Shown here one piece after another: positions 5,285 through 25,837 of a stretch of 28,907 bases of DNA (the first letter of the stretch is position 1; every line of letters begins with the position of its first letter). The translations under genes were made by a program, and so were the position numbers. Where the stretch lies: positions 1-28,907 of IMG/VR virus record IMGVR_UViG_3300034105_001925; one strand, written 5' to 3'. Under the pieces are notes generated by a model, which had not been told where the DNA came from, searched no databases, and worked only from the letters and a program-made list of their open reading frames with translations. The DNA is from a virus.

Positions 5285-5493
5285 TATTTTACTCCTACTG
5301 TTCCGTTGCGGTGAAAGGTCTTAGTAAACATCTTACCCGTTGGGTCTGACAAGTTATAGGTAGCGTATTCCTTAGCAGTGCCATGATCTACGCATAGATT
5401 CCAAGCGTTTACAATTTCTAATAAATCTGATACTCGCAGGGTATTTACTAATTCCCCGTCATAAGCAGTAGTAAGTGAGTAAGTGTATTCCAT
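5284..5493 (-). CDS. Hypothetical conserved phage protein, 69 aa
   Basis: I chose the start MEYTYSLTTAYDGELVNTL at 5493 for GAAGGA upstream; the longer frame to 5547 would overlap most of the neighbour's tail. Segments LLEIVNAWNLCVDHGTAKEYATYNL and GKMFTKTFHRNG resemble a small protein seen in several actinophages. Function unknown. It contains an internal TGTCAG promoter for the next gene. Confidence 0.75.
   Translation of the reverse strand: MEYTYSLTTAYDGELVNTLRVSDLLEIVNAWNLCVDHGTAKEYATYNLSDPTGKMFTKTFHRNGTVGVK
5330..5351 (-). promoter_or_regulatory. Intragenic TGTCAG-N10-TAAGAT promoter
   Basis: TGTCAG (5346-5351), 10 bp, TAAGAT (5330-5335), inside gene 5284-5493 and upstream of the start at 5284. 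The -10 box is weaker than in other copies. Confidence 0.45.
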
Positions 5494-5699
5494 TAGTTTC
5501 CTTCTTTCGTAGTTGATATTTCTGATACTAACATATCGGACTGACATTCGCAGGGTTCTGAGTAATCAAACTGGCAGAAATAACAACCCATCATTTCATC
5601 GCATACACGGCACTGATACTTAAACTGTACTTCATCGCAACAATAGTGCGAGATATCCCAAATTAAGTAGTGATCTGTCTTATCTATAACTGTAGCCAT
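5493..5699 (-). CDS. Cys-rich zinc-binding-type protein, 68 aa (paralogue of 9373-9540)
   Basis: Start MATVIDKTDHYLIW at 5699 lies behind a TGTCAG promoter and AGAGG; the open frame extends to 5903 but would read through the promoter and CRP site. It carries CCDEVQF, a C-x2-C pair, then GCYFCQFDYSEPCEC. The same pattern (CDEIQF and GCYFCEFDYSQPCEC) recurs in the gene at 9373-9540, so the two are paralogues. The paired Cys suggest a structural zinc site. Function unknown. Its C-terminal codons contain the promoter for the next gene. Confidence 0.75.
   Translation of the reverse strand: MATVIDKTDHYLIWDISHYCCDEVQFKYQCRVCDEMMGCYFCQFDYSEPCECQSDMLVSEISTTKEGN
5525..5546 (-). promoter_or_regulatory. 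Intragenic TGTCAG-N10-TAGTAT promoter
   Basis: TGTCAG (5541-5546), 10 bp, TAGTAT (5525-5530) with TGT before it. It lies in the last codons of gene 5493-5699, 31 bp upstream of the start at 5493. Confidence 0.55.
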
Positions 5700-5818: not shown

Positions 5819-5838
5819 TGTGGATAAGCTGTGGATAA
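5819..5838. promoter_or_regulatory. Two tandem perfect DnaA boxes
   Basis: TGTGGATAA occurs at 5819-5827 and 5830-5838, both exact complements of the DnaA box TTATCCACA and repeated with an 11-bp period (about one helical turn). CCCGGG follows at 5842 and an AT-rich stretch (5855-5915) follows that. The layout resembles a small replication origin or a DnaA-controlled regulatory site. Confidence 0.6.
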
Positions 5839-5841
5839 GCC

Positions 5842-5847
5842 CCCGGG
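5842..5847. repeat. CCCGGG palindrome, cassette D
   Basis: Lies 3 bp from the second DnaA box. The 215-bp stretch 5700-5915 holds promoter, CRP-like site, DnaA boxes, this palindrome and a possible 18-residue membrane peptide. Confidence 0.5.
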
Positions 5848-5854
5848 CCCACTT

Positions 5855-5911
5855 TCATTGAAGTATAAATAAAATTACTAACCAAAGAAAAACATAAATC
5901 CAAATATTCAT
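5855..5911 (-). CDS. Possible 18-residue hydrophobic peptide
   Basis: An 18-codon frame starts 4 bp after the GP88 stop and reads MNIWIYVFLWLVILFILQ, entirely hydrophobic. Two other operons here also end in a short membrane gene (8346-8438 and 7103-7255), which makes it worth listing. There is no strong ribosome binding site, and it overlaps the AT-rich side of the DnaA-box region, so it may be chance. Confidence 0.25.
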   Translation of the reverse strand: MNIWIYVFLWLVILFILQ

Positions 5912-5915
5912 TTTA

Positions 5916-6641
5916 TTATTTCTTAGTCGCAGAAAAAATAATATCACTCTTAGAATAAACACACAGTTTACATGATACGCATGCGGAGCCAGCAGCGCTA
6001 ATTAATGGAATCTGTTTATTATTCTCAGGACACTTAGCAGCAGGCTTACCAATCATTTCTTTAAGATCTGCTTTACCTATAGCAAAATTCTTAGCAAGGT
6101 ATGCCATGCGGACCCCACTATTAATTTTTAGATCAACAGCAGTTTTAACATTCTCGCTATCAGCAGAAAAATACAGTGAAAGGTTTTCAATATCTTTTAG
6201 AATGAGGGCAGCAGACTTAACACGAGTGTAAACCCAGAACTGTACATCCGCATTAAGTTTAATTACATCGGACCATGCCGTAGTGTAAGTATCATTAAAG
6301 AAGTCGCCATCCCAATGGATACGGAATAACATAGGCGCATTCTTTTTTACGCAATCAGCTTTGAAATCAGCAATCATTTCACCGATCAAATTAAACATAG
6401 TTAAATAGTCTGCGTCTTTTAGCAGGGCCCAATTATGAAGTAAGTTAACCTTTACGGAAGGGAATACCTTTTCTAGTTTTCCCGCATAACAGACACTCTC
6501 GCAAACAGTCGTTGCGCCAGGACAAGAATAAGCCTTTCCAGCGGGTAGGCCGAAGGTGTTGGCAATTGCTGCTTGCTTTCCATTTTTTGTGACAAGGTTA
6601 GCGACCTTTCTATCGTTAGAACGTTTTAGTTTAGTAGTCAA
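5916..6641 (-). CDS. GP88-family Cys-rich phage protein
   Basis: 241 residues. The N-terminal part has AYSCPGATTVCESVCYAG, the Cys signature of the phage 'gene product 88' family (Pfam GP88). The C-terminal part has AAKCPENN and ACVSCKLCVY, giving a second Cys cluster. Between them are conserved-looking stretches FRIHWDGDFFND and FWVYTR. Clustered Cys in this family suggest a metal or Fe-S site, but no activity is established. No ATG is available before the signature; the frame starts with TTG at 6641, overlapping the upstream gene by 11 bp. A weak GAG is the only visible ribosome site, so translation may be coupled. Confidence 0.82.
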   Translation of the reverse strand: MTTKLKRSNDRKVANLVTKNGKQAAIANTFGLPAGKAYSCPGATTVCESVCYAGKLEKVFPSVKVNLLHNWALLKDADYLTMFNLIGEMIADFKADCVKKNAPMLFRIHWDGDFFNDTYTTAWSDVIKLNADVQFWVYTRVKSAALILKDIENLSLYFSADSENVKTAVDLKINSGVRMAYLAKNFAIGKADLKEMIGKPAAKCPENNKQIPLISAAGSACVSCKLCVYSKSDIIFSATKK

Positions 6642-9372: not shown

Positions 9373-9540
9373 TTACTGGTCACACTCACAAGGCTGAGAG
9401 TAATCAAATTCGCAAAAGTAGCAACCTTGCGCCTCGAAATGCTTTTCGCAATAGTGGCGGAATTGGATCTCATCACAATGTAAGAACTGAGTGTAATCGG
9501 TAAGGTAATAGCGATTAACGGGGTGAAGGACAAGGCTCAT
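9373..9540 (-). CDS. Cys-rich zinc-binding-type protein, 55 aa (paralogue of 5493-5699)
   Basis: Start MSLVLHPVNRYYLTDY at 9540, overlapping the upstream stop as ATGA with GAAGG before it; a longer frame to 9564 is less likely. HCDEIQF, HYC and GCYFCEFDYSQPCEC match the pattern in gene 5493-5699. Probably a structural zinc site. Function unknown. Confidence 0.75.
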   Translation of the reverse strand: MSLVLHPVNRYYLTDYTQFLHCDEIQFRHYCEKHFEAQGCYFCEFDYSQPCECDQ

Positions 9541-9701
9541 AGAGATACCTTCCATTCTCCCCATGCGTTAAGGGATTCGGCAGACCGCTCAATATTCTGC
9601 TCGCAAACCTCGCAAAAGGTAAATTGCTCATCACAATATTCTGATATTGCGAGATTAGGGATATGCTCTGAGCATACTGTCATTTTTTCTAATGTAGTCA
9701 T
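9537..9701 (-). CDS. Small Cys-motif protein, 54 aa
   Basis: Begins MTTLEKMTVCSEHIPNL at 9701 behind GAAAGGTGGTC. It carries C-x3-P, YCDEQFTFC and EVCEQN; the Cys/His set may bind zinc, and YCDEQF is reminiscent of the CDEIQF of the next gene. First minus-strand gene left of the divergent switch. Confidence 0.7.
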   Translation of the reverse strand: MTTLEKMTVCSEHIPNLAISEYCDEQFTFCEVCEQNIERSAESLNAWGEWKVSL

Positions 9702-9993: not shown

Positions 9994-10015
9994 TGTCAGT
10001 ACCCCCTGCTAGAAT
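9994..10015 (+). promoter_or_regulatory. TGTCAG-N10-TAGAAT promoter (rightward arm)
   Basis: TGTCAG (9994-9999), 10 bp, TAGAAT (10010-10015) with TGC before it, 32 bp upstream of the start at 10048. Confidence 0.7.
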
Positions 10016-16745: not shown

Positions 16746-17446
16746 TGCCAATTCCAGGAGTAACGGGTTCTTCAGATAATCGCCAGCCAGGAACTCCAAC
16801 TATTGGAGCTGCAACTGCTGGTAATGCTAGTGTATCTGTAGCTTTTACTGCTCCAGCAAATACTGGAAAACCTAATACATCTTTAACCTATACAGCAATT
16901 ACAACTCCAAGTTCAATTACTGGAACTAGTCCTACATCTCCAATTACTATTTCTGGTTTATCTAATGGTACTTCCTATACCGCAGTTGTTAAGTTAAATA
17001 ATACCGTTCAAGATTCTCTAAGTTCTGCTGCTAGTAATTCATTTACTCCAGTAGCGCCACCGTTCTTCCCATTCTTCCCACCATTCTTCCCATTCTTCCC
17101 GTTCTTCCCACCATTCTTCCCACCATTCTTCCCAACATTTGTTCAGCCAACACCATCATTTACATTTGCGACTGCCAGTAACCCAGGTTCCACTTCTATG
17201 GTTATTGAATTTGGAGGAAATGATGCAGCTGCTTACACCATAACAACTTCACCAGCTCCTCCAGAACCAGGAGGACTTGCTTCAGGTCCATACGTTCCCT
17301 TGGCTCCTTACAACATTGGTATGAGCATTACATTGACTGGTCTTTTGCCAAGCACAGCATACACATTTACTTATACACTTTATGCTAACAGTAATTTCAC
17401 TGGGCCAACTGCTTCACTTACTCGCAGTAACACCACTACCGCATAA
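16745..17446 (+). CDS. FN3-PFFP-FN3 adhesin-like virion protein, 233 aa
   Basis: Start at 16745 (TAATG overlap) rather than 30 bp earlier. Residues about 13-103 form a fibronectin-III-like domain (TISGLSNGTSYTAVV). Residues 105-131 are a PFFP-repeat linker and about 135-233 form a second FN3-like domain (LTGLLPSTAYTFTYTL). The Hint protein at 24506 has the same FN3-PFFP plan and, like this one, directly follows a fibre with the PLNA/YP-GT tip domain. Likely an extended surface arm. Confidence 0.75.
   Translation: MPIPGVTGSSDNRQPGTPTIGAATAGNASVSVAFTAPANTGKPNTSLTYTAITTPSSITGTSPTSPITISGLSNGTSYTAVVKLNNTVQDSLSSAASNSFTPVAPPFFPFFPPFFPFFPFFPPFFPPFFPTFVQPTPSFTFATASNPGSTSMVIEFGGNDAAAYTITTSPAPPEPGGLASGPYVPLAPYNIGMSITLTGLLPSTAYTFTYTLYANSNFTGPTASLTRSNTTTA
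17057..17136 (+). repeat. In-frame PFFP coding repeat, short array
   Basis: Repeats of CC(A/G)TTCTTC encode Pro-Phe-Phe-Pro blocks. Units are multiples of 3 bp, so copy-number changes keep the reading frame. Confidence 0.8.
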
Positions 17447-24505: not shown

Positions 24506-25837
24506 ATGGCTAAAAAGACAGGTAAACGTTCAGCTGCATCTAATGACTTTTTAGAGCCATTTGCACCAACAAGCGTAAGTGCTACGGATGTTGGAACAGG
24601 CAGAGCGTTTAACAATGGCGCAGCAACAGTTACATTTTCTTTGCCTGCATTATCTCCTGCTGCTACATCATTTACCGTAACTTCATCTCCTGGCGGATAT
24701 ACTGGAACTGGATCATCTTCTCCAATTACAGTAACTGGACTTCAGTCTGCCACTGCTTATACATTTACAGCAACTGCTACTAACGCTTCTGGAACTTCTC
24801 AGGCATCTACAGCATCAGCTTCTATTACCGCAACAACAGTTCCTGCTCAAATGGCAGCTCCAACCCCTACTGCTGGAGTTAATCAAAACTCTATTGCTTT
24901 TTCAGCCCCAGCAACTGGTGGAAAAACTATAAGTAGTTACACAGTAACTGGATCTGATGGCACATCTGGAACAGGCGCTACTTCTCCAATTACTATTGCT
25001 GACACTGGTGGAACTTCACAGACTTATACAGTTACTGCTACTAACGATAACGGAACAAGCGTTGCTTCCGCTGCGTCTGGTTCTATTACTACATTATCCC
25101 CCTTCTTTCCACCGTTTTTCCCTCCATTTTTTCCATTCTTCCCATTCTTCCCACCATTCTTTCCACCATTCTTTCCATTCTTTCCACCGTTTTTCCCACC
25201 AACATTTGGCCCATTCTTCCCACCGTTCTTCCCATTCTTTCCACCGTTCTTCCCACCAACATTTGGTCCGTTCTTCCCACCATTCTTCCCAACATTCTTT
25301 ATTGGCCAACCACCACCTGCTGGGCCAGGTAGCAAAGGATCACTTGGACCTAACGTACTTGTTAGAGGAGAAAATGGTTTAATTCGTGCACAAGACTTGG
25401 TAGTTGGAGATGTCGTTAAATCTCTTGATATTCCAGGAATTCCACAAAACTTTACAACTATTGGAACAACTGCAGAAGAACTTGCTGAGATGTCCTGGGA
25501 TACAGAGTCTGTGTTATCAGCAACTCCAGTACTAACTACAATTAATAGAGTACAGATCATACAAAGAACAGGTGCAGTGTCTGTAAATGCTGAAGTGCTT
25601 ACAAGAAACCACTACCTACTTATTGAAAGAAATGAAGTTGTAAAAGCTATAAAAGCTGGAGATCTTTTAGAAACAGATAAAATGTTTGATTATAACACAT
25701 CTACATTTGTTAATATAACTGAGCTAGAGTTTTTAGATATCACATATTATGCGTACAGCATTAACTGTGAACCTTACGACTTCTATTTAACAGAGCATAC
25801 ATTAACATTTGATAATAATGAATGGTATCCAGAATAG
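24506..25837 (+). CDS. FN3-FN3-PFFP-Hint protein, 443 aa
   Basis: Two FN3-like domains (about 15-110 and 112-197), a 65-residue PFFP linker (199-264) and a C-terminal Hint domain (about 279-443). The Hint start S279-LGPNVLV aligns with the C-x-x-P-x-T-x-V start of inteins and BIL domains, with Ser instead of Cys. RAQDLVVGDVV, block B T366-R-N-H369 and block F YAYSINCEPYDFYLTEH are all present. The usual C-terminal His-Asn and extein are absent because the protein ends there, so N-terminal cleavage, not splicing, would be expected if active. Likely a virion surface protein. Confidence 0.85.
   Translation: MAKKTGKRSAASNDFLEPFAPTSVSATDVGTGRAFNNGAATVTFSLPALSPAATSFTVTSSPGGYTGTGSSSPITVTGLQSATAYTFTATATNASGTSQASTASASITATTVPAQMAAPTPTAGVNQNSIAFSAPATGGKTISSYTVTGSDGTSGTGATSPITIADTGGTSQTYTVTATNDNGTSVASAASGSITTLSPFFPPFFPPFFPFFPFFPPFFPPFFPFFPPFFPPTFGPFFPPFFPFFPPFFPPTFGPFFPPFFPTFFIGQPPPAGPGSKGSLGPNVLVRGENGLIRAQDLVVGDVVKSLDIPGIPQNFTTIGTTAEELAEMSWDTESVLSATPVLTTINRVQIIQRTGAVSVNAEVLTRNHYLLIERNEVVKAIKAGDLLETDKMFDYNTSTFVNITELEFLDITYYAYSINCEPYDFYLTEHTLTFDNNEWYPE
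25100..25293 (+). repeat. In-frame PFFP coding repeat, long array
   Basis: About 190 bp of near-identical 9- to 12-bp units encode PFFP blocks, broken twice by a Thr-Phe-Gly-containing spacer. It is similar to 17057-17136. Confidence 0.85.

Follow-up and report, generated by a model that had tools for sequence, protein, structure and literature searches.

Tandem DnaA boxes beside a CRP/GlxR-like palindrome: a putative upstream activator site of a phage promoter

The DnaA box pair and its promoter

A tandem pair of exact DnaA boxes in an environmental phage genome is best read as the upstream activator site of a phage promoter, with host DnaA and a GlxR-type protein acting together on a subset of the phage promoters; we hold this reading with moderate confidence. 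The DNA analyzed here (the window) comprises positions 1 to 28,907 of IMG/VR record IMGVR_UViG_3300034105_001925. It contains two exact TGTGGATAA boxes, at 5819-5827 and 5830-5838, on the same strand and 11 bp apart from start to start. There is no further exact TGTGGATAA box in the window, and the one-mismatch matches lie at least 600 bp from the pair. The original prediction, which had noticed the two exact boxes with their 11-bp period, the CCCGGG hexamer beside them (5842-5847) and the adjoining AT-rich DNA, was accurate on each of these points; the AT content over 5855-5915 is 82%, and only 2.0% of the window's 61-bp segments are equally AT-rich. It was also right that such a pair is improbable by chance, as a first-order Markov model of the window predicts 0.41 single boxes and about 4e-5 tandem pairs with a gap of 0-12 bp. 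Contrary to what had been supposed, perfect tandem boxes are not rare in phages: the pair with a 2-bp gap matches at least 120 IMG/VR contigs. T5-like phages and one microvirus also have comparable box pairs, located in their noncoding DNA.

Both boxes lie on the minus strand, and the promoter module is best described in the leftward direction. The distal box (5838-5830) is followed by the promoter-proximal box (5827-5819; TTATCCACA in the transcribed direction), 13 bp of spacer, a CRP/GlxR-like palindrome at 5805-5790 (TGTGAGATTAAACACA on the minus strand), the GGCGTGTCG element at 5767-5759 (minus strand; CGACACGCC on the plus strand), the promoter element TGTCAG at 5750-5745 and, ten bases further on, the -10-like element TAGGAT at 5734-5729 (both minus strand). 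The first gene after the promoter begins with an ATG at 5699 and encodes a 68-aa Cys-rich protein (5493-5699, minus strand), for which searches of PHROG and Pfam gave no match. The palindrome has one mismatch to TGTGA-N6-TCACA, and its 13-bp gap from the proximal box is one of the two modal gaps at related loci. The DnaA boxes are upstream of the promoter and conserved in relatives, the arrangement of a DnaA-regulated promoter, and a TGTGA-N6-TCACA-type palindrome lies upstream at a roughly helically phased distance, the arrangement of a class I CRP/GlxR promoter. A DnaA-regulated promoter for the operon starting at 5699 was among the functions originally suggested for the pair and is the one best supported, while the suggested replication origin is not supported (see below); the CRP/GlxR-like palindrome and the rigid promoter motif go beyond that proposal.

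TGTCAG and TAGGAT are parts of a recurrent motif, TGTCAG-N10-TAnnnT, found in the window on the minus strand at 2617, 3232, 3984, 4246, 5351, 5546, 5750, 6868, 7714, 8087, 8204, 9340 and 9757, and on the plus strand at 9994, 10247 and 10477. Exact boxes are present at only one of these 16 promoters. The spacer between TGTCAG and the -10 element is exactly 10 in 83 of 96 scored pairs from 13 contigs; the 17-bp spacing of sigma-70 promoters, assumed at first, was rejected. The GGCGTGTCG element is a recurrent intergenic motif of the phage family: counted as CGACACGC, it has 61 intergenic and 1 genic occurrence in the 13 contigs and is a further putative regulatory motif.

The immediate relatives of the window retain most of this module. 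Among six close sequences, the proximal box is exact in four and reads TTATACACA in two, the distal box is exact in four, and no sequence is without an exact box. Apart from one box base, all six are identical from the proximal box to the far end of the palindrome, and the palindrome itself does not vary; this conservation alone is modest evidence, because mean identity in the region is 92%. The boxes at this particular locus are confined to the close clade and are mostly absent in relatives from L133 onward, whose GP88 identity is about 93% and lower. The expectation that the boxes should be conserved in relatives was thus borne out for the six close sequences and mostly failed from about 93% GP88 identity down.

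The module across related contigs

Eighty related loci were retrieved via GP88, and 12 of their contigs (56-115 kb, 1.05 Mb in total) were read whole. The TGTGGATAA box occurs 96 times in these 12 contigs, compared with 13 +/- 9 for permutations of the sequence (0 of 1,679 permutations reach 96), and none of its single-mismatch variants has a comparable frequency. Ninety of the 96 copies fall outside predicted genes, with genes called by a simple codon-score script that places their edges approximately. Boxes number 3-13 per phage record, and within each contig most of them cluster in a single region of about 10-20 kb. The two top-ranked intergenic 8-mers are GTGGATAA and TATCCACA.

The palindrome is enriched as well and accompanies the boxes. 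There are 82 exact palindromes in the 12 contigs and none for a reversed control. The combination of a box with TGTGA-N6-TCACA was found in at least 120 IMG/VR contigs, compared with 4 when the box was reversed; 112 of the 120 listed contigs match proteins of the window's phage family, and none of the 4 reversed-box controls does so. In the 12 contigs, which were chosen by GP88 only, a palindrome lies within 70 bp of 42 of the 55 promoter-type boxes (11.7 +/- 2.9 for random intergenic places). Contigs chosen by GP88 yield 311 non-redundant TGTCAG-N10-TAnnnT promoters, a set defined by a motif found in those very contigs; a palindrome lies within 200 bp of 192 of these promoters, 92 are accompanied by an exact box, and 82 have both. 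The co-occurrence has an odds ratio of 8 and a Fisher p of 1.1e-11, and such p values are optimistic because the phages are related and the sites partly dependent. The order box, palindrome, promoter holds in 79 of the 82 modules that contain both sites.

Spacing within the modules is also constrained. Same-strand box pairs are mostly 11, 12, 21 or 42 bp apart, and 192 of 211 pairs (a set that includes pattern-chosen loci) are in helical phase, compared with 32% expected. Gaps between box and palindrome peak at 10-14 and 32-35 bp in the pattern-chosen set; the 34-bp peak is due to second boxes lying another 21 bp away, because the pattern allowed gaps of 3-30 bp. When contigs were chosen by GP88, the distance between the palindrome and its nearest box varied over 15-37 bp with one sharp peak, so this phasing is weaker than that of the pair spacing. 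Distances from palindrome to TGTCAG peak at 36, 41, 46 and 57 bp, mostly about one turn apart; here phasing is only suggestive, because the period near 10-10.5 bp is broad and the 41-bp peak is out of phase. Overall, the spacing suggests proteins bound along one face of the helix.

Proposed mechanism

In the mechanism that we favor, the promoter would read leftward into the operon of small genes starting at 5699, with the box pair as its upstream activator site. Host DnaA would bind both boxes on a single face of the helix and a GlxR-type protein of the host's CRP family would occupy the neighboring palindrome; host RNA polymerase at TGTCAG-N10-TAnnnT would be under their joint control. Neither a DnaA domain IV nor a Crp-type HTH was detected among the proteins encoded in 15 phage records, so host proteins are the natural candidates for binding. 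Binding by host DnaA and GlxR, an activating effect and the host itself are all inferred. Since boxes accompany only a minority of the phage promoters, the state of host DnaA, in addition to cAMP, would influence one part of the early region. More tentatively, a widespread uncultured actinophage family may have a set of promoters wired to host DnaA and a cAMP-receptor protein through a standard module of helically phased DnaA boxes, CRP site and TGTCAG-N10-TAnnnT, with the CCCGGG-type hexamer as an extra layer. If this proved true, phage expression would sense the replication state and the energy state of the host together.

The position of the boxes, upstream of the activator site, favors activation over repression. 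The opposite sign is conceivable, in that host DnaA sitting upstream of the CRP site might repress the promoters until it is drawn to replicating DNA, and DnaA is known to repress the promoter of its own gene (PMC8203912). However, the boxes precede the activator site in 79 of the 82 modules and do not overlap the promoter, and we regard repression as unlikely.

Relation to known systems

Class I CRP/GlxR promoters likewise carry TGTGA-N6-TCACA upstream at roughly helically phased distances, but their core is TTGACA-N17-TATAAT, whereas the phage core is TGTCAG-N10-TAnnnT with DnaA boxes further upstream. To our knowledge, and within the literature searched, DnaA control of phage transcription has been described only for isolated cases, of which lambda is one. 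A literature search that covered few subscription papers returned no report of DnaA boxes and CRP sites together in phage promoters. The E. coli guaB promoter is acted on by both DnaA and CRP; it is a single, chromosomal case, whereas the phage arrangement is repeated family-wide with fixed order and spacing. The guaB promoter is a subject of PMC2885671, where DnaA and CRP are both named. In lambda, DnaA, whose role as a transcription factor is established, stimulates transcription, possibly via RNA polymerase (PMC8203912, PMC3985674). Lambda pR and ori-lambda, with DnaA sites downstream of pO, likewise exemplify host DnaA acting on phage transcription (PMC8203912, PMC3985674); lambda offers one replication-region case with box-like sites, whereas in the family of the window exact boxes precede many promoters and are accompanied by a CRP-like palindrome. 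A module that recurs at dozens of promoters in a large group of environmental phages would open the possible coupling between phage expression and host replication to direct reporter assays.

Phage family and candidate host

The phage family of the window appears to resemble the Stanwilliamsviridae actinophages: a related contig (G009) encodes a DnaE with 55% identity to the polymerase of BillNye-type phages and a DnaB with 39% identity to the helicase of other Streptomyces phages, and the GP88 gene of the window matches BillNye DNA. A search for isolates with the DNA of the module found only short matches to the box pair, for example in coliphages, Salmonella phages and microviruses. Within GTDB genomes, GP88 was found on only two contigs, the first from a cyanobacterial and the second from an Actinomycetota bin, which is a weak clue to the host. 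A single phage-like contig of 4.7 kb, placed in an Actinomycetota MAG, is the basis for the candidate host order, whose genomes are mostly 1.1-1.5 Mb, a size that fits Nanopelagicales.

In this order TGTGGATAA is the commonest 9-mer after dnaA (oriC), and box pairs also occur at the start of dnaA; the dnaA promoter/oriC region of these small-genome Actinomycetota (the order of G024) has the same box as the phage, often paired 10-12 bp apart. A 230-aa CRP carries the helix GASRETVNKALADF, which we take to be the helix of GlxR. Unlike the phage, the order lacks the box-palindrome composite (0 of 101 genomes), which argues against capture of the module from a promoter of this order. These genomes show no enrichment of TGTGA-N6-TCACA either, so the actual host may be another actinobacterium.

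The numbers of boxes bear on the earlier suggestion that the pair is a decoy that titrates host DnaA; during infection, boxes serving mainly as decoys would block re-initiation by the host. Chromosomes of the candidate host order have about 5-14 exact boxes, near the chance level, and a phage record has 3-13, so that tens of phage copies would exceed the host sites. Titration could in this way be a side effect of the module, but it requires neither the order nor the spacing of the boxes relative to palindrome and promoter, both of which are constrained, and the host counts come from a candidate order. A role mainly as decoy is rather improbable.

A binder other than DnaA, from phage or host, that shares the DnaA box sequence is to be given about the same low weight. 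DnaA binding is predicted from the sequence, many phage proteins have no assigned function, and the link to the candidate host order is weak. On the other side, TGTGGATAA matches the bacterial DnaA consensus and is an exact match to the commonest 9-mer at oriC of the candidate order, and no single-mismatch variant is as frequent.

The AT-rich stretch and the replication origin

The AT-rich DNA beside the boxes coincides with a micro-ORF (5855-5911, minus strand; 57 bp) that encodes the hydrophobic 18-aa peptide MNIWIYVFLWLVILFILQ immediately after the GP88 family gene. The latter occupies 5916-6641 on the minus strand and matches phrog_1392 and PF17338 (E=9.5e-55; 186.4 bits versus a cut-off of 24.4). 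A hydrophobic ORF of 14-26 aa is found at the same position in 78 of 80 sequences tested, with its nucleotides varying and its character conserved, which suggests a conserved single-span membrane microprotein. The AT richness of 5855-5911 would then be a consequence of hydrophobic codons. An unwinding element at this site was ruled out, as the stretch codes for the conserved micro-ORF.

It is very improbable that the pair is the phage origin, at which host DnaA would open the adjoining 82% AT DNA, even though relatives encode a DnaB helicase and a DnaE-type polymerase without detectable DnaA. An origin would be expected to have at least three clustered DnaA boxes, an adjacent noncoding AT-rich unwinding element, and the same element kept in place across the family. 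This locus has two exact boxes, its AT-rich stretch is the micro-ORF, the boxes are mostly absent here in relatives from L133 onward, and a different element is conserved in 10 of the 12 contigs. GC skew, proposed earlier as a check, gives no support to an origin at the boxes: its extremes lie elsewhere, in a fragment genome whose skew may follow gene strand, and in fragments skew is uninformative about the origin.

The element shared by the 10 contigs is the better candidate. It consists of TCCACTT repeats, an AT-rich block ending in ATCAGTAA and a box pair, mostly TGTGGATAA-ACC-TGTGGATAA, after that block, all within long noncoding DNA. Of the relatives read whole, G001 is the closest; there the element starts at 43394, and position 1 of the window aligns to G001 40854, so that, judging from relatives, the corresponding element would lie about 2.5 kb past the left end of the window. 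This element is the likelier origin, rather than the pair within the window. The origin call is corrected accordingly, and an element of about 160 bp is singled out as a candidate for replication initiation.

The cultured cousins also have their boxes in a long noncoding gap of their own. Stanwilliamsviridae Streptomyces phages are related through GP88 and DnaE and carry exact TTATCCACA sites in a long unannotated gap (BillNye (L420), 119428-119715; Wakanda (L423), 119039-119315; Blueeyedbeauty (L424), 123482-123745; Jay2Jay, 122001-122031). The outer boxes are about 255 bp apart in BillNye, Wakanda and Blueeyedbeauty, and the gap element of these three is a candidate for the Stanwilliamsviridae origin. 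BillNye has a single exact TGTGA-N6-TCACA, which is not at its boxes; its boxes look origin-like and not promoter-like as in the window. A switch to the Streptomyces-type box TTGTCCACA was expected in these phages and rejected, as they carry TTATCCACA.

Other sequence elements

The CCCGGG hexamer beside the box pair is one of seven copies in the window, at 1422, 2711, 4405, 5842, 7058, 8338 and 9889, every one of them intergenic. Other palindromic hexamers are similarly intergenic in relatives: GACGTC in G012, G013 and G019 (7 of 7, 9 of 9 and 11 of 11 copies), CACGTG in G006 (8 of 9) and CCTAGG in G018 (8 of 9). The CCCGGG-type hexamer looks like a lineage-specific operator.

The small Cys-rich proteins encoded at 5493-5699 and 9373-9564 (minus strand) have in common the pattern CDExQF...YC...GCYFCxFDYSxPCEC, with no Pfam match, and are likely paralogues. 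Repeats of the FFPPFFPFFPP type are found in predicted structural proteins, at 17057-17139 and 25123-25299 of the window.
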